Shown here one piece after another: positions 269 to 32,352 of a stretch of DNA of 41,221 nucleotides. A model generated the notes under the pieces. The model saw only the letters and a program-made list of their open reading frames with translations. It was not told the DNA's origin and searched no databases. Every line of letters starts with the position of its first letter. Positions within the stretch are counted from its first letter, which is position 1. This stretch comes from an uncultured Bacilli bacterium (GTDB lineage: Bacteria; Bacillota_I; Bacilli_A; RF39; UBA660), in contig CALVOU010000001.1 of the NCBI GenBank assembly GCA_944350365.1, forward strand, positions 78,814 to 120,034. The letters run 5' to 3'. The translations under genes were made by a program, and so were the position numbers.

Positions 269-1802
269 AAAGACAACCATTCTGACAATAATAGCCTTAA
301 TCATCACTGGAGTTGTCGTCTATTTAGGTTCCAATCCGACAACGACCTATGCCAAAATACTAGGAATGACTAGTAGTAATGAACCAAGACAGTTATATCA
401 TATCTACCTTGGTGGAGAATCTTTGGGATTAATTGAATCAAGAGAAGAATTAGAAAGCTTTATCGATGAAAAACAGAGTGTTATAAAAGATAAATATCAA
501 GTAGACAAAGTTTATGTTCCTAATGATTTAGATATCGTACAAGAGATTACTTATGATGAAAATATTTCTTCAATCGAAGAAATTTACGAGAAGATTCAAG
601 AGAAAAAAGGAAGCGAAGCCTTTACCATAGATGGCTATAAGATCGTAATTGATGGAATTGAAAAAGAGACAGAGGGTGGAGAAACAGTAACCACTCCAGA
701 CATTGTTTTATATGTCTTAGATAAAGAAATTTTTACGAATTCAGTAGAAAAAACAATTACTTCTTTTATCGATGAAGATAGTTACCAGGACTTTTTAAAT
801 GATACCCAAGAAGAAATTCAAGAAACTGGTACGATTATCGAGGATCTATATATCCAAAATAACATCAGTATTCATAAAGGAAGAATTCCTACTGAAGAAA
901 AAATTTATTTAACAGAAGATGAATTAAGTAAATATCTTCTTTTTGGAACAATAGAAGATCAAGCGACTTATACCGTTCAAGAAGGAGATACCATTGAAGA
1001 TATTGCCTTCAACAACAAGTTATCTCCAGAAGAATTTCTAATTGCTAATACTGAGTATAATACGACTTCTGATTTATTATATCCAGGTAAAGAAGTAGTA
1101 TTGGGTGTGATTCAACCCCAATTCGATACAGTAGAAGAAACTCACGTAGTCTCTAAGAAGACAGTAGAAATTCAAACAGTGTATGAAGATGATCCTAATC
1201 AATATACTGGATATGAAAGAGTAAAACAGGAAGGTTCAGAAGGATTGAGTTTGGTTACTGAAAAGCAAAAATTAGTAAACGGAGAAATTACTAGCGTTGT
1301 TCCGGTATCAGAAGAAGTATTAGTACCTTCTGTCAATAAAATCATTGTCCGTGGAACAAAACAACGGGTAAATAGCTCAACTTCAATTACCAATCAAGAA
1401 GTGCCAGTAGGTGTTGGTAGTTGGGTATGGCCAACGACTGTGCCTTATACAATCTCTAGTAGCTTTGGTTATCGATGGGGAAAACTTCACGAAGGAATCG
1501 ATATCAGTGGTATTGGTCGTGGTTCTCCAATCAAAGCCACTAATAACGGACTTGTTGTTCAATCTGGATATACAAGAACAAACGGAAACTATATTGTTAT
1601 CGCTCATAGTAATGGTTATTATACAATGTATGCGCATATGAATTCTCGTATTCGTGAAGCAGGAGATGTTGTCATGGCCGGCGATCAAATCGGAACTGCA
1701 GGAGATAGTGGTTTCGCAACCGGTGTACATTTACACTTTGCGATATACCGTGGAATGCCATATCGTGGTGGCGTACCGATTAGTCCATTTAATATTTTCT
1801 AA
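261..1802 (+). CDS. LysM-G5-M23 (LytM-type) cell-wall metallopeptidase
   Basis: Predicted secreted or membrane-anchored peptidoglycan endopeptidase of 513 aa. It has an N-terminal hydrophobic segment (about residues 7-25), a long middle region, a LysM motif (TYTVQEGDTIEDIA, about 235-280), a G5-like domain (about 300-375) and a C-terminal M23 domain. The zinc and catalytic residues appear intact: H410 and D414 (HEGID), H459 (YAH), and H490/H492 (HLH), with LytM-like spacing, so it should be active. I chose ATG 261 rather than the in-frame GTG 252 because AGAGGTG (248-254) is then correctly placed as ribosome binding site. It overlaps dnaB by 8 nt and is followed after 2 nt by walJ, so the group is probably co-transcribed. 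Confidence 0.9.
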   Translation: MDKKTTILTIIALIITGVVVYLGSNPTTTYAKILGMTSSNEPRQLYHIYLGGESLGLIESREELESFIDEKQSVIKDKYQVDKVYVPNDLDIVQEITYDENISSIEEIYEKIQEKKGSEAFTIDGYKIVIDGIEKETEGGETVTTPDIVLYVLDKEIFTNSVEKTITSFIDEDSYQDFLNDTQEEIQETGTIIEDLYIQNNISIHKGRIPTEEKIYLTEDELSKYLLFGTIEDQATYTVQEGDTIEDIAFNNKLSPEEFLIANTEYNTTSDLLYPGKEVVLGVIQPQFDTVEETHVVSKKTVEIQTVYEDDPNQYTGYERVKQEGSEGLSLVTEKQKLVNGEITSVVPVSEEVLVPSVNKIIVRGTKQRVNSSTSITNQEVPVGVGSWVWPTTVPYTISSSFGYRWGKLHEGIDISGIGRGSPIKATNNGLVVQSGYTRTNGNYIVIAHSNGYYTMYAHMNSRIREAGDVVMAGDQIGTAGDSGFATGVHLHFAIYRGMPYRGGVPISPFNIF

Positions 1803-1804
1803 TC

Positions 1805-2563
1805 ATGAAAGTAAAAGTATTAGCAAGTGGTTCTAAAGGAAATTGTACTTACATCGAAACAAAGAAAAGCAAAATTCTAATCGATATTGGAATCACTTAT
1901 CAGCATTTAGCTTCCGAATTGTCAAACCTAGATCGAACACCAAAAGACTTAGATGCGATACTGATTACTCATACGCATTCTGATCATATCAAAGGATTAC
2001 AAGGACTCATAAGAAAAACCAATCTCCCTGTTTATGTGAGCGAAAAAATGATGACGGAACTACAAGAAAAAATTCCAGTTACAGTATGTCGATACTTAGA
2101 AGAACATTTTTTCTTAAATGATATCGAAGTAGAAATTATGCATACTTCTCACGATGTAGATTCTGTCGGTTACATTTTGTCTAACGAAGAAGCAAGTATC
2201 GTATATGTCACAGATACTGGTTATATTAACCGCCGTTATTTAAACCGCATGAAAAACAAAGACTTATATATTATGGAAAGTAACCATGATGAGAAAATGT
2301 TGATGAATGGTCCTTATCCTTTTATCCTAAAACAGCGAGTATTAAGTGATAAAGGCCATTTGTCTAATCATACAGCCGCTAAGTATCTTCAAGAAATTGT
2401 TGGAGAAAAAACTAAGTACATTATTTTAGCGCATATCAGTGAAAATAATAATACAGAAGAACTAGCCTTTCAAACAACGAAAGAAGTTCTAGAAGAAAAT
2501 CATATAGATAAACCAATCATCGTCGCTAAGCAACATGAATCATTAGAAACAATCGAGGTATAA
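1805..2563 (+). CDS. walJ: WalJ/YycJ-type metallo-beta-lactamase-fold protein
   Basis: 252 aa. The protein starts MKVKVLASGSKGNCTYIE and carries the metal-binding THTHSDH motif (about residues 57-63), a later SHDVDSVGY segment, VTDTGY and a GHLSNH stretch, all hallmarks of the WalJ (YycJ) branch of the metallo-beta-lactamase superfamily. Family members are predicted metal-dependent phosphodiesterases, some with DNA exonuclease activity, linked to replication and cell-wall control. It starts 2 nt after the M23 gene and is followed 1 nt later by rlmH, reproducing the common walJ-rlmH neighbourhood of Firmicutes. No strong Shine-Dalgarno precedes it, so coupled translation is likely. Confidence 0.9.
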   Translation: MKVKVLASGSKGNCTYIETKKSKILIDIGITYQHLASELSNLDRTPKDLDAILITHTHSDHIKGLQGLIRKTNLPVYVSEKMMTELQEKIPVTVCRYLEEHFFLNDIEVEIMHTSHDVDSVGYILSNEEASIVYVTDTGYINRRYLNRMKNKDLYIMESNHDEKMLMNGPYPFILKQRVLSDKGHLSNHTAAKYLQEIVGEKTKYIILAHISENNNTEELAFQTTKEVLEENHIDKPIIVAKQHESLETIEV

Positions 2564-2564
2564 A

Positions 2565-3020
2565 ATGATTAAAATAATTTGTATTGGAAAATTAAAAGAA
2601 AAATATTGGCAAGATTCTTGTGAGGAATATCGAAAAAGACTAGAAAAATATACTAAGTTAGAAATCATTGAATTAGCAGATGAAAAAAGTGATGATGAAA
2701 AAGTTTGTTTAATTAAAGAAAAAGAAAGAATCGAGAAAGTAATAAATCCGAAAGATTATCTAATTACCTTAGAAATTGATGGTAATCAAGTAGATTCAGT
2801 GGTGCTTGCTCAGAAACTTGATCGTCTTCAGGCACAAAATAGTACCATTACTTTTTTAATTGGTGGTTCTCATGGTATCCACGAAGAGATAAAGAAGTTA
2901 GCTAACGAACATCTTTCTTTCTCCAAGTTAACTTTCCCACATCAACTATTTCGCCTTCTGCTTCTTGAACAACTTTACCGTAGTTATAAAATTATTAACC
3001 ATGAAAAGTATCATAAATAA
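2565..3020 (+). CDS. rlmH: 23S rRNA pseudouridine-1915 N3-methyltransferase RlmH
   Basis: 151 aa, close to the usual ~159. SPOUT-class methyltransferase that methylates pseudouridine 1915 in helix 69 of 23S rRNA on assembled ribosomes, using S-adenosylmethionine. Visible signatures are the start MIKIICIGKLKEKYW, the knot segment FLIGGSHGIHEE (about 107-118) and the C-terminal LLLEQLYRSYKIINHEKYHK, whose last residues form the active-site tail. It begins 1 nt after the walJ stop and is followed directly by a strong terminator that closes the dnaB-M23-walJ-rlmH run. Confidence 0.97.
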   Translation: MIKIICIGKLKEKYWQDSCEEYRKRLEKYTKLEIIELADEKSDDEKVCLIKEKERIEKVINPKDYLITLEIDGNQVDSVVLAQKLDRLQAQNSTITFLIGGSHGIHEEIKKLANEHLSFSKLTFPHQLFRLLLLEQLYRSYKIINHEKYHK

Positions 3021-3052
3021 AGAATACGATCTAAAAAATCGTATTCTTTTTT
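3021..3052 (+). terminator. Intrinsic terminator after rlmH
   Basis: Perfect 10-bp arms AGAATACGAT / ATCGTATTCT (3021-3030 and 3038-3047) around a 7-nt loop, followed by a T run to 3052. It starts immediately after the rlmH stop. Confidence 0.9.
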
Positions 3053-3130
3053 AGTATATAAGTTAACTATGAGTGAATTTTGTCCTCTTTGTTTTATCCC
3101 TCTTCTATAATGAAAACAAGAGGTAACAAT

Positions 3131-3496: not shown

Positions 3497-3547
3497 AGCT
3501 TTTACATATCTAAACTAAGCTTAACATAGAATAGTACGGGTGATTCT

Positions 3548-22436: not shown

Positions 22437-22520
22437 GCATTTAATTACTATGGTTGATTAGTCGATCATGGCGAAGAGAAAGCTCAATGATTCCTAGAAT
22501 ATCTAGGGTGAAAGGAGAGA
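22437..22520 (+). promoter_or_regulatory. Structured 5' leader of rpmE (candidate L31 autoregulatory leader)
   Basis: About 85 nt of leader lies between promoter and start. It holds two hairpins: ATGGTTGA pairing with TCGATCAT (with G-U pairs, ~22449-22470), and CCTAGA-ATA-TCTAGG (~22493-22508) just before the ribosome binding site AAAGGAGAG. L31 leaders that bind their own protein are known in Firmicutes; this match is by position and structure only. Confidence 0.45.
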
Positions 22521-25594: not shown

Positions 25595-27726
25595 TGGTAA
25601 TATGATCAATTATATTATTTATGAAGATGAAGTAGAGTATAGAAAAAAGTATATTTCAATAATCTTAAAATTAAGAGGGAAAGAACAAGAAGGCTATCGA
25701 ATAATTGAGTTAGATAAATATGATGAGAAAACGAAAAAACAATTAGATGAAACACTAGGAAAGAAAATCTATATCTTTGATATTGAAGTACCAGGAAAAA
25801 GTGGCTTGGATCTAGCGAAAGAGATCAGGGAATCAGGAGATTGGGAAAGCCAAATCATTGTGGTAACAACGCATGAACAACTAAGAACCGCAAGTTTTAC
25901 TTCAAGATTATTGATGTTAGATTTTGTTAGTAAATATTATGATTGTGAAAATAGGTTGAAAGAAAGTTTAATCGTCGCATTCGATATTTTAACGAAATAT
26001 AAAGCACTAACTTTTATGAACGAGGGAGAATTGTATCAAATTCCGTATCGAGATATTTTGTATATAGAAAAAAGCGTAAAAGAAAATGGGTGTATTATAG
26101 TAACAAAGAAAGAAACAATCGAGGTAAAAGAACCATTAACCAAATTAGAAGAGAGATTAGATAGTAGATTTTATAAAACACATAGAAGATGTATAGTGAA
26201 TTTACATAATGTAAAACGATTTGATTTTAATCAAGGATTGATTAAATTTGAAGAACAAGAAATTGATATGTTAGCAAGAAATAATCGAAAAGACTTAAGG
26301 GATAAACTGTGTGCCAGTCAAATAGGAAACGATAATACCGAAGGGAATGAGCCACCCAATAAAGATGAAGGAGTAAAGTTAATAGAAGTGTATTGTGGAG
26401 TGTGAAATAAGGGATGAATAGATGAAAGATATGGAAATAATAATAAGTACTATTATAATGTCTTGTTCACTTTTTGCAGTAGGAGATATATTACTAAATA
26501 AATCAGAAAAAGTAAATTTAAAAAATTTTGCAATAACCGTAGGGATAAGTTTAGTGATAATTTTAATTAATTTAGTTAGTGAAAGTATAGTTGATAATGT
26601 TTTAAAAATCTTAATTATATTTATAAGTTACATAGGATATTATAAATTAGTATTTAACGAATCATTGACAAAATCCATGTTAATGAGCTTCATAATGTAT
26701 CTAATATTTTTTATAAGCGAAGTAATAGTAGTATTTATAATGTATTTTACATTTTTCTTATTACAAAACAATAATGCAGCAGAGTTAAAAAACAGTATTA
26801 TCATAAATCTAATAATTTGCTTATTGGGAATAGCGGTATCAATAAGATTTAAAAAGGAATTATCAATGATAATAGAGAAAATAAATAGTGACAAAAGAAC
26901 AATATTTATAATAGCAATAATAGTCCTATTGGCATTAGCAATATTATTTAATAAAACACCTGTTAATGAATTAGAATTAAATATTAATTTTATATTAACC
27001 ATTTTGTTAATGATTTTGTTTTGTATAGTTGGATTTATTTTAATTAAGCAAAAATACGATGTTGATAAAATGAACGATGAGTATAAAAAGTTAGCAAACT
27101 ATTCTCAAATAACAGAAGGAGTATTAGAGGAGTATAGATTAAATTTACATGAAAGTAGAAACCAATTAATTATTATTAGAAATATGATTTCTACTACAAA
27201 GAAGAAAGAACTAGAAGAGTATGTAAATAACTTAATTGACGCAACAGAAGTAAATAAGTATAGATGGATAAATGAATTAAAATATATTCCAATTCCAGAG
27301 TTAAAAGGGTTTATTAACTTTAAGTTAATGGAAATGAGTAACAAAAAAATCGATATTGAGATTCATATCGAAAGAAAATTAAAAGATTCCAAAATGAAGA
27401 AACTAAAAATCAAAGATAGAGGAGACTTTTATAGTATTATAGGAGTATTTTTAGACAATGCAAAAGAGGCAAGTCTGGAAAGTAAAGAAAAGAAAGTTGC
27501 GTTAGAAATGTATGAAATCAATGATGAGATTCATATTATCATAGCGAATACTTATAAAGGGAAAATAGACATTGATAAGATTAATGAATATGGGTACAGT
27601 AGTAAAGGAAAAAATAGAGGAACAGGATTACATTTAGTAAATAAAATCGTTGAAAGAAATAAATTGTTTGAACGAGCTACTTCAAAAATGGATGAATATT
27701 TTGTCCAAGAGTTGGTTATACATTTA
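25595..27726 (+). repeat. Direct repeat copy 1 (agrA-agrC)
   Basis: This 2.1 kb segment recurs at 29139-31270 with a constant offset of 3544 nt and no indel. I see no base difference from 25602 to 27668, then two silent changes (27669 and 27678), and the sequences diverge at about 27727. Similarity fades just upstream of the ribosome binding site. Confidence 0.95.
25602..26405 (+). CDS. AgrA-type LytTR response regulator, copy 1
   Basis: 267 aa. The receiver domain has acidic pair E8-D10 region and phospho-acceptor D60 (IYIFDIEVPGKSG). The C-terminal LytTR DNA-binding domain spans about 140-240 (GELYQIPYRDILYIEK...KTHRRCIVNLHNVKRF). An unusual ~30-residue tail after it (from about 238, GNDNTEGNEPPNKDEG) is not part of typical AgrA. 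Start at ATG 25602 is set by GAGGTGG; the upstream in-frame extension to 25536 crosses the promoter. agrC follows after 16 nt. LytTR regulators bind 9-bp direct repeats with a 21-22 bp period; such a pair is present before agrB in this window. Confidence 0.92.
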   Translation: MINYIIYEDEVEYRKKYISIILKLRGKEQEGYRIIELDKYDEKTKKQLDETLGKKIYIFDIEVPGKSGLDLAKEIRESGDWESQIIVVTTHEQLRTASFTSRLLMLDFVSKYYDCENRLKESLIVAFDILTKYKALTFMNEGELYQIPYRDILYIEKSVKENGCIIVTKKETIEVKEPLTKLEERLDSRFYKTHRRCIVNLHNVKRFDFNQGLIKFEEQEIDMLARNNRKDLRDKLCASQIGNDNTEGNEPPNKDEGVKLIEVYCGV

Positions 27727-27741
27727 GATACAATAAAATAA
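26422..27741 (+). CDS. AgrC-type sensor histidine kinase, copy 1
   Basis: 439 aa. Six to seven hydrophobic segments (about 5-25, 38-52, 61-75, 88-115, 127-141, 160-176, 189-208) form a polytopic peptide-receptor domain. The dimerisation helix carries likely phospho-acceptor H243 (NLHESRNQL). The HATPase domain has the N box FLDNAKEAS (N346) and the G box NRGTGLHLVNK (about 398-408). This matches the HPK10/AgrC group that senses cyclic peptides. It is translated just after agrA. It uses the Ile codon ATA far more than the housekeeping genes around it, suggesting acquisition by transfer. Confidence 0.9.
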   Translation: MKDMEIIISTIIMSCSLFAVGDILLNKSEKVNLKNFAITVGISLVIILINLVSESIVDNVLKILIIFISYIGYYKLVFNESLTKSMLMSFIMYLIFFISEVIVVFIMYFTFFLLQNNNAAELKNSIIINLIICLLGIAVSIRFKKELSMIIEKINSDKRTIFIIAIIVLLALAILFNKTPVNELELNINFILTILLMILFCIVGFILIKQKYDVDKMNDEYKKLANYSQITEGVLEEYRLNLHESRNQLIIIRNMISTTKKKELEEYVNNLIDATEVNKYRWINELKYIPIPELKGFINFKLMEMSNKKIDIEIHIERKLKDSKMKKLKIKDRGDFYSIIGVFLDNAKEASLESKEKKVALEMYEINDEIHIIIANTYKGKIDIDKINEYGYSSKGKNRGTGLHLVNKIVERNKLFERATSKMDEYFVQELVIHLDTIK

Positions 27742-27804: not shown

Positions 27805-28890
27805 ATGTTTACTCCAGAAATAGATCATATATTGAAAATAGTAGCCATTACTTTTTTATTTAGTGTATGTATTATGCCTCTAATGAAAAAAATAGCCCAT
27901 CATATAGGAGCAATTGATATTCCTAGAAATACAGAGCATAATCGTCATATTCATAAGAAGCCTATTCCAAAATTGGGAGGCCTGGGGATTTTTTTAGCGT
28001 TTTTGTTTGGATATATGCTATTTGGTCAACATAGCATTAAAATGAATGCAATTTTAATTGGTAGTTTTGTTATTATATTGACGGGTTTACTAGATGATAT
28101 AAATGATTTAAGAGCTTCTCAAAAGCTATTAGGTCAGCTAGTAGCAGCAGCTATTGTAGTATTTTATGGAAAAATAGTAATTACGGACATTTCCGCTTTT
28201 GGTATGGTTTTTGATTTTGGAATCCTATCAGAGATTATAACAATAATTTTTATAGTAGCCTGCATTAATATTATTAACTTTACGGATGGTTTAGATGGCC
28301 TAAGTGGTGGAGTAACTTCTATTTTCTATATTACAACAGGTATTATTTGTTTCTACCAAGGAAGAATTGGTACTTTAGAGTTTACATTAACATTTATTAT
28401 GTTAGGTGCTACTTTGGGATTTTTAGTACATAATTTTTATCCGGCAAAAATATTTGCCGGTGATTGTAGTCAATTTATGGGATTTATGATAGCAATTATT
28501 TCATTATTAGGATTTAAAGGAACAGCTTTGACTTCTTTATTCGTTCCAATTCTAATTTTGGGATTACCAATTCTAGATACGTTATTTGCTATTATTCGAA
28601 GAACACTTAGAGGACAACCTATTTTCGCTGCCGATAAAGAACATTTTCATCATCAGCTATTAGGTATGAACTTTTCACAACGAACAACAGTACTTATTAT
28701 TTACGGAATCAATATTTTATTCGCCTTGACATCAATTTTTTATGTATTAAAAGACCCTAAAGCTGCCACAATAGTATATATTATTTTATTAATTATCTTT
28801 ATATGGTTTGTTTGCTATACAAGTATAATAACTGATAAGCGACCACCAAAATTAAGAGAATTGAAAGAAAAAATTAAAGCAAAAAATTGA
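27805..28890 (+). CDS. tagO: TagO/WecA-type undecaprenyl-phosphate GlcNAc-1-phosphate transferase
   Basis: 361 aa with about ten membrane helices. It transfers GlcNAc-1-P from UDP-GlcNAc to undecaprenyl phosphate, starting wall teichoic acid or related polymer synthesis. Seen: GLLDDINDLRASQKLLGQL, NFTDGLDGLSGGV, and the C-terminal PILDTLFAIIRRTLRGQPIF and ADKEHFHHQLL block typical of TagO. The conserved loop that normally reads GD-x-G-S reads GDCSQFMGF here, one residue short, which may affect activity or reflect lineage variation. TATAAT (27779-27784) and GAGGTGATAAG precede ATG 27805. It is enclosed by the two agrAC repeats. Confidence 0.9.
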   Translation: MFTPEIDHILKIVAITFLFSVCIMPLMKKIAHHIGAIDIPRNTEHNRHIHKKPIPKLGGLGIFLAFLFGYMLFGQHSIKMNAILIGSFVIILTGLLDDINDLRASQKLLGQLVAAAIVVFYGKIVITDISAFGMVFDFGILSEIITIIFIVACINIINFTDGLDGLSGGVTSIFYITTGIICFYQGRIGTLEFTLTFIMLGATLGFLVHNFYPAKIFAGDCSQFMGFMIAIISLLGFKGTALTSLFVPILILGLPILDTLFAIIRRTLRGQPIFAADKEHFHHQLLGMNFSQRTTVLIIYGINILFALTSIFYVLKDPKAATIVYIILLIIFIWFVCYTSIITDKRPPKLRELKEKIKAKN

Positions 28891-28891
28891 A

Positions 28892-28920
28892 TTGACAAAA
28901 TTTGGTAGTTATAGTAATAT
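28892..28920 (+). promoter_or_regulatory. Strong SigA promoter with no protein gene behind it
   Basis: Consensus TTGACA (28892-28897), 17 nt, TAATAT (28915-28920), beginning right at the tagO stop. It drives the candidate sRNA. I see no LytTR 9-mer pair next to it. Confidence 0.82.
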
Positions 28921-28926
28921 GAAATT

Positions 28927-29080
28927 AAATTTTAGAATATTAGCACACCTGAACATCTAGAAAAAGATATGAACATGAAACTATAAGAAATCCTTATAGA
29001 GCCCCTAGTCCCTAGCCACTTAAAATCTAAATATTGCAAAAAAGACCCTTTGTGCTCACCCCACAGAGGGTCTTTTTTGC
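28927..29080 (+). ncRNA. Candidate small regulatory RNA beside agr
   Basis: About 154 nt between a consensus promoter and a strong terminator, with no credible open reading frame (only ATGAACATGAAACTATAA). It has an internal hairpin CTATAAG-AAATC-CTTATAG (28981-28999), a C-rich unpaired stretch GCCCCTAGTCCCTAGCC (~29001-29017), and a terminator hairpin whose 7-nt loop is CUCACCC. The loop is complementary to GGGUGA, the Shine-Dalgarno sequence before the DUF1934, pta, symporter and fba genes here. C-rich loops pairing to Shine-Dalgarno sequences are how S. aureus RNAIII, also agr-linked, acts. Function is inference; expression is untested. Confidence 0.6.
29036..29080 (+). terminator. Very strong terminator with exposed CUCACCC loop
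   Basis: GCAAAAAAGACCCT (29036-29049) pairs perfectly with AGGGTCTTTTTTGC (29067-29080). An inner TGTG/CACA stem closes the loop CTCACCC (29055-29061). T6 is in the right arm. Confidence 0.9.
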
Positions 29081-29138
29081 AATTGAAAAGAAAGTGTGAA
29101 AATATAATAAAATCAAAATGGTATTTAAAGAAAAGAGA

Positions 29139-31270
29139 TGGTAATATGATCAATTATATTATTTATGAAGATGAAGTAGAGTATAGAAAAAAGTATATTT
29201 CAATAATCTTAAAATTAAGAGGGAAAGAACAAGAAGGCTATCGAATAATTGAGTTAGATAAATATGATGAGAAAACGAAAAAACAATTAGATGAAACACT
29301 AGGAAAGAAAATCTATATCTTTGATATTGAAGTACCAGGAAAAAGTGGCTTGGATCTAGCGAAAGAGATCAGGGAATCAGGAGATTGGGAAAGCCAAATC
29401 ATTGTGGTAACAACGCATGAACAACTAAGAACCGCAAGTTTTACTTCAAGATTATTGATGTTAGATTTTGTTAGTAAATATTATGATTGTGAAAATAGGT
29501 TGAAAGAAAGTTTAATCGTCGCATTCGATATTTTAACGAAATATAAAGCACTAACTTTTATGAACGAGGGAGAATTGTATCAAATTCCGTATCGAGATAT
29601 TTTGTATATAGAAAAAAGCGTAAAAGAAAATGGGTGTATTATAGTAACAAAGAAAGAAACAATCGAGGTAAAAGAACCATTAACCAAATTAGAAGAGAGA
29701 TTAGATAGTAGATTTTATAAAACACATAGAAGATGTATAGTGAATTTACATAATGTAAAACGATTTGATTTTAATCAAGGATTGATTAAATTTGAAGAAC
29801 AAGAAATTGATATGTTAGCAAGAAATAATCGAAAAGACTTAAGGGATAAACTGTGTGCCAGTCAAATAGGAAACGATAATACCGAAGGGAATGAGCCACC
29901 CAATAAAGATGAAGGAGTAAAGTTAATAGAAGTGTATTGTGGAGTGTGAAATAAGGGATGAATAGATGAAAGATATGGAAATAATAATAAGTACTATTAT
30001 AATGTCTTGTTCACTTTTTGCAGTAGGAGATATATTACTAAATAAATCAGAAAAAGTAAATTTAAAAAATTTTGCAATAACCGTAGGGATAAGTTTAGTG
30101 ATAATTTTAATTAATTTAGTTAGTGAAAGTATAGTTGATAATGTTTTAAAAATCTTAATTATATTTATAAGTTACATAGGATATTATAAATTAGTATTTA
30201 ACGAATCATTGACAAAATCCATGTTAATGAGCTTCATAATGTATCTAATATTTTTTATAAGCGAAGTAATAGTAGTATTTATAATGTATTTTACATTTTT
30301 CTTATTACAAAACAATAATGCAGCAGAGTTAAAAAACAGTATTATCATAAATCTAATAATTTGCTTATTGGGAATAGCGGTATCAATAAGATTTAAAAAG
30401 GAATTATCAATGATAATAGAGAAAATAAATAGTGACAAAAGAACAATATTTATAATAGCAATAATAGTCCTATTGGCATTAGCAATATTATTTAATAAAA
30501 CACCTGTTAATGAATTAGAATTAAATATTAATTTTATATTAACCATTTTGTTAATGATTTTGTTTTGTATAGTTGGATTTATTTTAATTAAGCAAAAATA
30601 CGATGTTGATAAAATGAACGATGAGTATAAAAAGTTAGCAAACTATTCTCAAATAACAGAAGGAGTATTAGAGGAGTATAGATTAAATTTACATGAAAGT
30701 AGAAACCAATTAATTATTATTAGAAATATGATTTCTACTACAAAGAAGAAAGAACTAGAAGAGTATGTAAATAACTTAATTGACGCAACAGAAGTAAATA
30801 AGTATAGATGGATAAATGAATTAAAATATATTCCAATTCCAGAGTTAAAAGGGTTTATTAACTTTAAGTTAATGGAAATGAGTAACAAAAAAATCGATAT
30901 TGAGATTCATATCGAAAGAAAATTAAAAGATTCCAAAATGAAGAAACTAAAAATCAAAGATAGAGGAGACTTTTATAGTATTATAGGAGTATTTTTAGAC
31001 AATGCAAAAGAGGCAAGTCTGGAAAGTAAAGAAAAGAAAGTTGCGTTAGAAATGTATGAAATCAATGATGAGATTCATATTATCATAGCGAATACTTATA
31101 AAGGGAAAATAGACATTGATAAGATTAATGAATATGGGTACAGTAGTAAAGGAAAAAATAGAGGAACAGGATTACATTTAGTAAATAAAATCGTTGAAAG
31201 AAATAAATTGTTCGAACGAGCCACTTCAAAAATGGATGAATATTTTGTCCAAGAGTTGGTTATACATTTG
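29139..31270 (+). repeat. Direct repeat copy 2 (agrA-agrC)
   Basis: Second copy of the 2.1 kb unit at 25595-27726, same orientation, offset 3544. The flanks differ completely: another promoter region before it and the agrD terminator after it. Confidence 0.95.
29146..29949 (+). CDS. AgrA-type LytTR response regulator, copy 2
   Basis: 267 aa, identical in sequence to copy 1 at 25602-26405, including D60, the LytTR domain and the unusual C-terminal tail. The ribosome binding site has one change (GAGATGG instead of GAGGTGG), which could lower translation. The promoter region is different: a TATAAT at ~29103-29108 behind the sRNA terminator, so transcription of the two copies is probably not the same. 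The longer in-frame start at 29050 lies within the sRNA terminator and is rejected. Confidence 0.92.
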   Translation: MINYIIYEDEVEYRKKYISIILKLRGKEQEGYRIIELDKYDEKTKKQLDETLGKKIYIFDIEVPGKSGLDLAKEIRESGDWESQIIVVTTHEQLRTASFTSRLLMLDFVSKYYDCENRLKESLIVAFDILTKYKALTFMNEGELYQIPYRDILYIEKSVKENGCIIVTKKETIEVKEPLTKLEERLDSRFYKTHRRCIVNLHNVKRFDFNQGLIKFEEQEIDMLARNNRKDLRDKLCASQIGNDNTEGNEPPNKDEGVKLIEVYCGV

Positions 31271-31285
31271 AATAGTATAAAATAA
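29966..31285 (+). CDS. AgrC-type sensor histidine kinase, copy 2
   Basis: 439 aa, identical to copy 1 except the last few residues (HLNSIK against HLDTIK). H243, N346 and the G box are unchanged, so both kinases should sense the same peptide. It converges on agrD-agrB, which lie on the opposite strand. The hairpin after it has its T run on the minus strand only, so plus-strand transcripts may run on as antisense to agrD and agrB. Confidence 0.9.
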   Translation: MKDMEIIISTIIMSCSLFAVGDILLNKSEKVNLKNFAITVGISLVIILINLVSESIVDNVLKILIIFISYIGYYKLVFNESLTKSMLMSFIMYLIFFISEVIVVFIMYFTFFLLQNNNAAELKNSIIINLIICLLGIAVSIRFKKELSMIIEKINSDKRTIFIIAIIVLLALAILFNKTPVNELELNINFILTILLMILFCIVGFILIKQKYDVDKMNDEYKKLANYSQITEGVLEEYRLNLHESRNQLIIIRNMISTTKKKELEEYVNNLIDATEVNKYRWINELKYIPIPELKGFINFKLMEMSNKKIDIEIHIERKLKDSKMKKLKIKDRGDFYSIIGVFLDNAKEASLESKEKKVALEMYEINDEIHIIIANTYKGKIDIDKINEYGYSSKGKNRGTGLHLVNKIVERNKLFERATSKMDEYFVQELVIHLNSIK

Positions 31286-31455: not shown

Positions 31456-32067
31456 TTATTTTGAAGCATTGATTACATAATTTTTATAATTATTATACGG
31501 TAAATTAAATAATTTATATATATATGGATTAATCAAGGCTCCCTCTATTAGCATCGCACTAGCGAGAGAATTTTGAAGAAAAGTATCTTTAGTAATAAAG
31601 ATCAAAGCAATATATATAGAAGAAATTAAAATCGTACATATTTTGTAAAATAACCTACGCTTTTTATGGATTAATGGTCTTTTAACAGTATCTGCAGGTG
31701 CGTACAATATAAAATTAATCATGCACACAACAGATATTGCCACTAGAAGGTAATTGGGTAACACCAAGGATTTGCAGAAAAAAGGTACTAGTAAAAAAGT
31801 AATACTAGAAGAAACCCAACACATCCAGCTTTTGGTTGCATGGAGACCAAATCCGGTTAATCTTAAGAAATTAAACAAAACAAGTAAGATGACAGATTCC
31901 TTAAATATACCAAGTAATAAAGAAATTCCTAAAATGACAACTAACTTAGTTATAGATAGATATGTTGCCTCGAGACCATATCTAATCTCATCTAACCTAT
32001 CCTCATCATAATTTGGATATATCTCTTTTACCATTTTTAGAGATCTTCCTAAGAAAAAACCTTTCAA
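31456..32067 (-). CDS. agrB: AgrB-type peptide-processing membrane protease
   Basis: 203 aa polytopic cysteine protease that removes the AgrD tail and forms the thiolactone ring. With the TTG start, the catalytic pair is H76 and C83 in GFGLHATKSWMCW, with the same 7-residue spacing as His77/Cys84 of S. aureus AgrB. About five to six membrane helices are seen. Start TTG 32067 is chosen because AGGAGGGA lies 6-8 nt before it and no other candidate has one; ATG 32097 overlaps the promoter -10. It is the first gene of a two-gene agrB-agrD operon facing agrC copy 2. Confidence 0.93.
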   Translation of the reverse strand: MKGFFLGRSLKMVKEIYPNYDEDRLDEIRYGLEATYLSITKLVVILGISLLLGIFKESVILLVLFNFLRLTGFGLHATKSWMCWVSSSITFLLVPFFCKSLVLPNYLLVAISVVCMINFILYAPADTVKRPLIHKKRRLFYKICTILISSIYIALIFITKDTFLQNSLASAMLIEGALINPYIYKLFNLPYNNYKNYVINASK

Positions 32068-32095
32068 AATTCTCCCTCCTAACAATGCCAAATAC

Positions 32096-32164
32096 ACTAT
32101 ATCACTTACCTTTATTAAAAAGTAGAAATTTGTCGTGAAATGTCGAAAATTGCTTGTGAACGGT
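32096..32164 (-). promoter_or_regulatory. agrBD promoter with a pair of LytTR (AgrA-type) boxes
   Basis: On the minus strand, ACCGTTCAC (32164-32156) and ACATTTCAC (32143-32135) are direct repeats 21 bp apart with a 12-bp spacer, the geometry of AgrA and VirR sites. A TATAGT -10 lies at 32101-32096, 33 nt after the second box, with no good -35, as expected for an activator-dependent promoter. A related inverted arm ACCGTTC lies at 32194-32200 on the plus strand. Confidence 0.7.
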
Positions 32165-32275
32165 TAAAAAATCGATAAAACACTTAAAAATTGACCGTTC
32201 AGAGCTAAATTTTGGCATCTCAGCAAAAAAATACAAAAAACGACAATGAAATATGCTACTATGAATATGCGCAGT

Positions 32276-32311
32276 AGTTGGTGGTTAGCACGAGAAGTTG
32301 GTGATGAGCAC
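32276..32311 (+). repeat. Imperfect tandem repeat in the csp leader
   Basis: AGTTGGTGGTTAGCAC (32276-32291) and AGTTGGTGATGAGCAC (32296-32311), 14 of 16 identical, period 20. It lies in the predicted 5' leader of the cold-shock gene, after the -10-like TACTAT at ~32256. Confidence 0.8.
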
Positions 32312-32352
32312 TAGGCGTCATAGAATTATATAAAGAAGGTGAGGTGGCAGTG

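Follow-up and report, generated by a model that had tools for sequence, protein, structure and literature searches.

Regulatory RNAs encoded near agr genes, or controlled together with them, include RNAIII of the Staphylococcus agr system and SpoZ of C. difficile. RNAIII is much longer than the candidate RNA described here and encodes a small peptide (hld). One account states that the agr regulons of other Firmicutes often include a regulatory RNA, e.g., RNAIII, VR-RNA or SpoZ (PMC10602386). A different group, known from Staphylococcus and Bacillus, comprises RsaE/RoxS and other small RNAs with C-rich regions. They are short and intergenic, combine unpaired C-rich stretches with a strong terminator, and have been proposed to pair with G-rich leaders. 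According to a second source, C-rich regions in the staphylococcal RsaE family are able to pair with G-rich Shine-Dalgarno sequences (PMC4409812).

The candidate RNA shares these features with the RsaE/RoxS kind, but it has no Rfam match at gathering scores, carries only one UCCC in its body in G000, the genome studied here, and is found in two species only. Compared with RNAIII and SpoZ, it lacks both an Rfam match and a promoter motif of the agrB type. No Rfam family reached its gathering score anywhere in the window, and among matches up to E 10 in 28860-29143 nothing was named RNAIII. FsrA of Bacillus subtilis (RF02273) gave a weak full-length match at 28996-29073, covering the C-rich stretch and the terminator. 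We rejected it: at 18.0 bits (E 0.15; gathering score 80) it is at chance level among 13 weak matches that include microRNAs and a snoRNA. We do not assign the candidate RNA to any named family.

The window is the whole stretch of DNA analyzed, 41,221 nt, corresponding to bases 78814-120034 of contig 1 of G000, a draft genome of 1.47 Mb in 80 contigs. Positions below are those of the window. The gene order is mbl, agrA copy 1, agrC copy 1, tagO, the candidate RNA, agrA copy 2 and agrC copy 2, followed by agrD and agrB on the opposite strand. Within the agr/tagO cluster, Pfam matches were obtained for LytTR, HATPase_c_5, AgrB and Glycos_transf_4. No Pfam family matches the AgrD-like peptide, and the name agrD is our own reading of it. 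The upstream neighbor of the candidate is tagO (27805-28890, + strand), a TagO-like glycosyl transferase of family 4 identified by PF00953 and synteny, and the downstream neighbor is agrA copy 2 (29146-29949, + strand), a LytTR response regulator (PF04397, PF00072).

Both tagO and the candidate RNA thus sit between two nearly identical agrA-agrC copies, an arrangement absent from the earlier note. The copies occupy 25602-27741 and 29146-31285, and in G006, a sister species, they occupy 921-3060 and 4455-6592 of L044. Identity between the copies is 99.7% in G000 and 99.4% in G006, but only 82% between the genomes. This near-identity would be due either to gene conversion inside each genome or to repeated duplication. 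As direct repeats, the copies could allow tagO and the RNA to be looped out. The order of the agr cluster varies across the genus: G015 (L076) has agrC on either side of tagO as well as two AgrD-like peptide genes there, G014 (L081) has a tandem pair of agrC, and G001 (L083) has agrC upstream of tagO only. The intergenic stretch between agrB and csp (32067-32352) has an overall conservation of 0.895 between G000 and G006, and there may be another RNA or control region there.

The element begins directly behind tagO. The earlier note had described a consensus promoter, and a match lies at 28892-28920 (+ strand): TTGACA (28892-28897) and the 17-nt spacing hold, but the -10 hexamer TAATAT (28915-28920) agrees with TATAAT at only four of six positions. 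The 8-kb region contains 55 promoter-like sites against 52.0 (sd 8.1) expected, so this match to the consensus is by itself no evidence of a promoter. The body of the putative RNA (28927-29034, + strand, about 106 nt) is A/U-rich and weakly structured in its 5′ part. It is free of genes, as had been claimed: 28927-29034 lacks a credible open reading frame. As possible small ORFs we considered an ATG within the -10 box and frames of three to five codons, and by eye none is credible. A small hairpin, CUAUAAG-AAAUC-CUUAUAG, is predicted at 28981-28999, with a stem that is invariant in G006 and a loop that reads AAAUA there. It leads into a C-rich stretch, GAGCCCCUAGUCCCUAGCC (28999-29017), which reads GAGCCCCGAACGUCCCCAGCC in G006. 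The stretch is mostly unpaired in the minimum free energy (MFE) fold, with four weak pairs in G000 and none in G006. The earlier note had pointed to a further single-stranded, C-rich segment of the body; it is present and is the conserved part.

The element ends in an intrinsic terminator (29033-29083, + strand) with an 11-bp core (29044-29054/29062-29072), the loop CUCACCC (29055-29061) and a U run (29073-29078). Of the perfect 14-bp stem described previously, the strong terminator stands but the perfection does not, as U29050-G29066 is a wobble pair. The MFE stem is 22 bp long (29033-29054/29062-29083) and includes pairing of the U run with an A run. The fold energy is -43.6 kcal/mol (z -8.05), and none of 200 shuffled sequences was equally stable; the terminator alone explains this stability. 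The site at 29033-29083 was not listed by the terminator scan.

G006 contains the whole element in the same place, with 90% identity over 206 bases (E 3.8e-74). A covariance model recovers the G006 homolog at E 7.3e-39, a value to be read with the model having been built from the G000 and G006 sequences themselves. Between the two genomes, 34/36 bases (94%) are identical in the promoter block (28891-28926), 97/107 aligned bases (91%) in the body and 46/49 aligned bases (94%) in the terminator. The comparison blocks are lower: 62.8% at tagO third codon positions, 51/63 (81%) in the agrC-tagO spacer and 45/58 (78%) in the spacer that follows the terminator. This difference argues for selection on a non-coding transcript, and body indels of 2 nt and 1 nt between the species argue against coding. 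Both promoter hexamers and their 17-nt spacing are identical in G006. Also kept are the unpaired 5′ part, the CUAUAAG/CUUAUAG hairpin, GAGCCCC, GUCCC, UAAAAUCUAAAUAUU and the 11-bp core of the terminator, and the outer A/U pairs of the terminator are kept only in part. Within the C-rich stretch, the first seven bases and GUCCC are retained, and the G006 version has more C than that of G000. A C-rich motif (GAGCCCC and GUCCC), unpaired or weakly paired, is therefore conserved across the two species. The G006 fold does not contain the 5′ stem predicted for G000. With two sequences, no pair in any helix has compensatory changes, and the hairpins are thus uncontradicted rather than proven.

As a yardstick we aligned syntenic intergenic regions from about two thirds of the G000 and G006 genomes, 134 in number and each 80 nt or longer, with the element added by hand. 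The best 150-column window of the element reaches 0.893 (median 0.707), which ranks it 16th of the 74 regions that have 150 or more aligned columns. This ranking is rough: the higher ranks include two stretches with tRNA genes, and genes below 70 codons were not called. The element is clearly conserved, though not unique or exceptional among intergenic stretches. At the level of sequence, conservation in G006 supports the small RNA gene proposed in the earlier note.

Beyond this pair of species, we did not find the element. A tagO match is present in 11 of the 17 genomes of the genus, and the element in two of these, G000 and G006. The other nine tagO-agrA junctions show no such RNA by eye. 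In all nine agrA follows tagO, with less than about 80 nt between the genes and, by eye, a short terminator-like stretch. Searching the 17 genomes with the covariance model gave only G000 and G006 at E < 0.1, and the next matches (E 0.104 and 0.106) are the reverse strands of the two terminators. A search of 291 genomes of the family, a sample without G006 and with stricter filters, returned the element's own genome alone. The G006 record was the only match in an exact-pattern scan of a named genome set, and viral contigs gave zero matches. BLAST at E ≤ 1 gave matches in 57/58 genomes, at full length only in G000 and G006; 12 of the short matches in relatives were inspected by eye, and none has the same architecture. 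There are no further copies in the element's own genome, where a similarity search shows only the element and the palindrome of its terminator. When 974,322 bases of G000 were scanned with six sub-motifs and mismatches were allowed, the element alone appeared at 0 mismatches, with other sub-motif matches at about the rate of shuffled motifs. The restriction to two genomes suggests that the RNA is young or fast-changing.

Targets were sought as pairing between the RNA and gene leaders in both species, a test of low power in an AT-rich genome. Genes were called in 974,322 (G000) and 974,632 (G006) bases, about two thirds of each genome. This gave 574 reciprocal best pairs (median amino acid identity 87.7%), of which 473 were used and 101, with starts that could not be aligned, were dropped. 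Conserved targets showed no excess over shuffled controls in any of three scans of the 473 pairs: the top sum for body duplexes was weaker than in 15/15 block shuffles, the top exact seed was reached or exceeded in 18/60 shuffles and the top duplex of the C-rich segment in 39/60. Complements of the C-rich motifs are rare before the 925 G000 starts (GGGGCT 1, AGGGGC 1, GGGGCTC 0, GGGACT 1). The best seed belongs to a DHHW-family gene (L091:3135, PF14286), whose Shine-Dalgarno sequence has a complement of 11 nt (G000) or 13 nt (G006), and this gene is second of 473 by duplex energy with the C-rich segment. We rejected it as a target: the site coincides with the last codons (YFRF-stop) of the gene before it, and shuffles score equally. 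The first of 473 in the C-rich duplex scan, an ABC-ATPase gene (L107:2583), was likewise dropped, as it is not significant against shuffles.

We infer, with a probability of about one half, that the element encodes an independent, trans-acting small RNA of about 150 nt, lineage-specific and of the C-rich kind found in Firmicutes. The gene would have arisen or arrived in the common ancestor of the G000 species and one sister species. Transcription would start at a dedicated promoter directly behind tagO and stop at a dedicated, strong terminator ahead of agrA copy 2. Most likely the RNA would act in trans, pairing with the G-rich leaders of a few mRNAs through its unpaired 5′ half and through the C-rich stretch that follows the hairpin, and the role of the terminator would be limited to ending and protecting the transcript. 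A rather unlikely alternative is that the stretch serves chiefly tagO, as its 3′ untranslated region and terminator, any small RNA being a by-product or processed 3′ end with no regulatory role. No terminator is seen between the tagO stop (28890) and 29033, so tagO transcripts should end at the terminator of the element. The short terminator-like stretches right after tagO in the nine other members of the genus, and a promoter match that is not above chance, fit this reading as well. A terminator alone, however, would need neither the hexamers nor the mostly unpaired body of about 100 nt, and their conservation, far above that of third codon positions, counts against it. It is improbable that the element is a cis-acting leader, i.e., an attenuator in which readthrough of the terminator sets the expression of agrA and agrC copy 2. 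Promoter, structured leader and terminator do lie in line, with agrA copy 2 starting about 60 nt downstream. But the body contains no two adjacent G, so that by eye nothing in it was seen to compete for the stem's C-rich 5′ arm; the stem itself is 22 bp long in the MFE fold, and no riboswitch family in Rfam matches. Moreover, a TATAAT with a weak -35 lies behind the terminator in both species (29103-29108, by eye), which points to a possible separate promoter for agrA copy 2.

The version in the earlier note, in which agr controls an RNAIII-like regulator and the terminator loop CUCACCC of this RNA blocks ribosome-binding sites that contain GGGUGA, is very unlikely. The loop and its complementarity exist in G000 as described, and GGGTGA does precede the four named starts, the motif itself lying at 3538, 8790, 11487 and 19433, with a fifth + strand site at 22506. 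But GGGTGA is an ordinary Shine-Dalgarno variant. GGTGA pairs with the 3′ end of 16S rRNA and is found before 165/925 G000 starts, so that GGGTGA is part of a larger Shine-Dalgarno group. The longer motif lies within -35 to +5 of 24/925 called genes in G000 and 25/939 in G006, occurs in one of the G000 coding control stretches, a distribution that fits a Shine-Dalgarno variant, and is kept in both genomes in 6/420 start-aligned ortholog pairs. Since it is a common variant, a loop complementary to it by chance is expected now and then. G006 keeps the terminator but its loop reads CUCAGCC, a change in the middle of the proposed anti-Shine-Dalgarno sequence that breaks the complement to GGGUGA, while the use of GGGTGA is unchanged. 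The loop is thus altered in a relative, the outcome that the earlier note itself had named as counting against its idea.

The link to agr is one of position only. Location inside an agr locus is the part of the RNAIII analogy that stands, together with the frequency of regulatory RNAs in other agr regulons reported in PMC10602386; against it are the missing Rfam match, the lack of any motif in common with the agrB promoter and the absence of the RNA from 9/11 members of the genus with a tagO match. Frequent agr control of small RNAs elsewhere keeps the idea open by analogy but adds no evidence here. Upstream of agrB (32156-32201, - strand) there is an inverted TGAACGGT/ACCGTTCA motif common to G000 and G006, and by eye five further regions upstream of agrB do not show it; TGAACGGT...ACCGTTCA is a plausible LytTR site and possibly an AgrA site. 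That no AgrA box is present at the RNA promoter agrees with our scan, in which none of CCGTTC, CGTTCA, GTTCA and AACGG occurred in 160 bases around it. In G015, agrC flanks tagO on both sides and there is no RNA, and thus agr duplication is insufficient to explain the RNA. We give little credence to a further scenario, in which the RNA would have emerged recently to regulate the duplicated agr module itself: GCCCCU would pair with AGGGGC in the leader of agrA copy 1 (AAAAAAGGGGCC) and repress this copy, giving unequal expression of the two. As a duplex target of the C-rich segment, agrA copy 1 ranks 56/473, and the AGGGGC in its leader is not kept in G006.

Our understanding of agr is unchanged by the candidate RNA. 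If transcribed, it would be a small RNA of recent origin whose appearance can be located: two sister species have it, and nine congeners do not have it at the same junction. It would then offer a clean before-and-after case of a new regulatory RNA settling between existing genes in an uncultured lineage of Bacilli.
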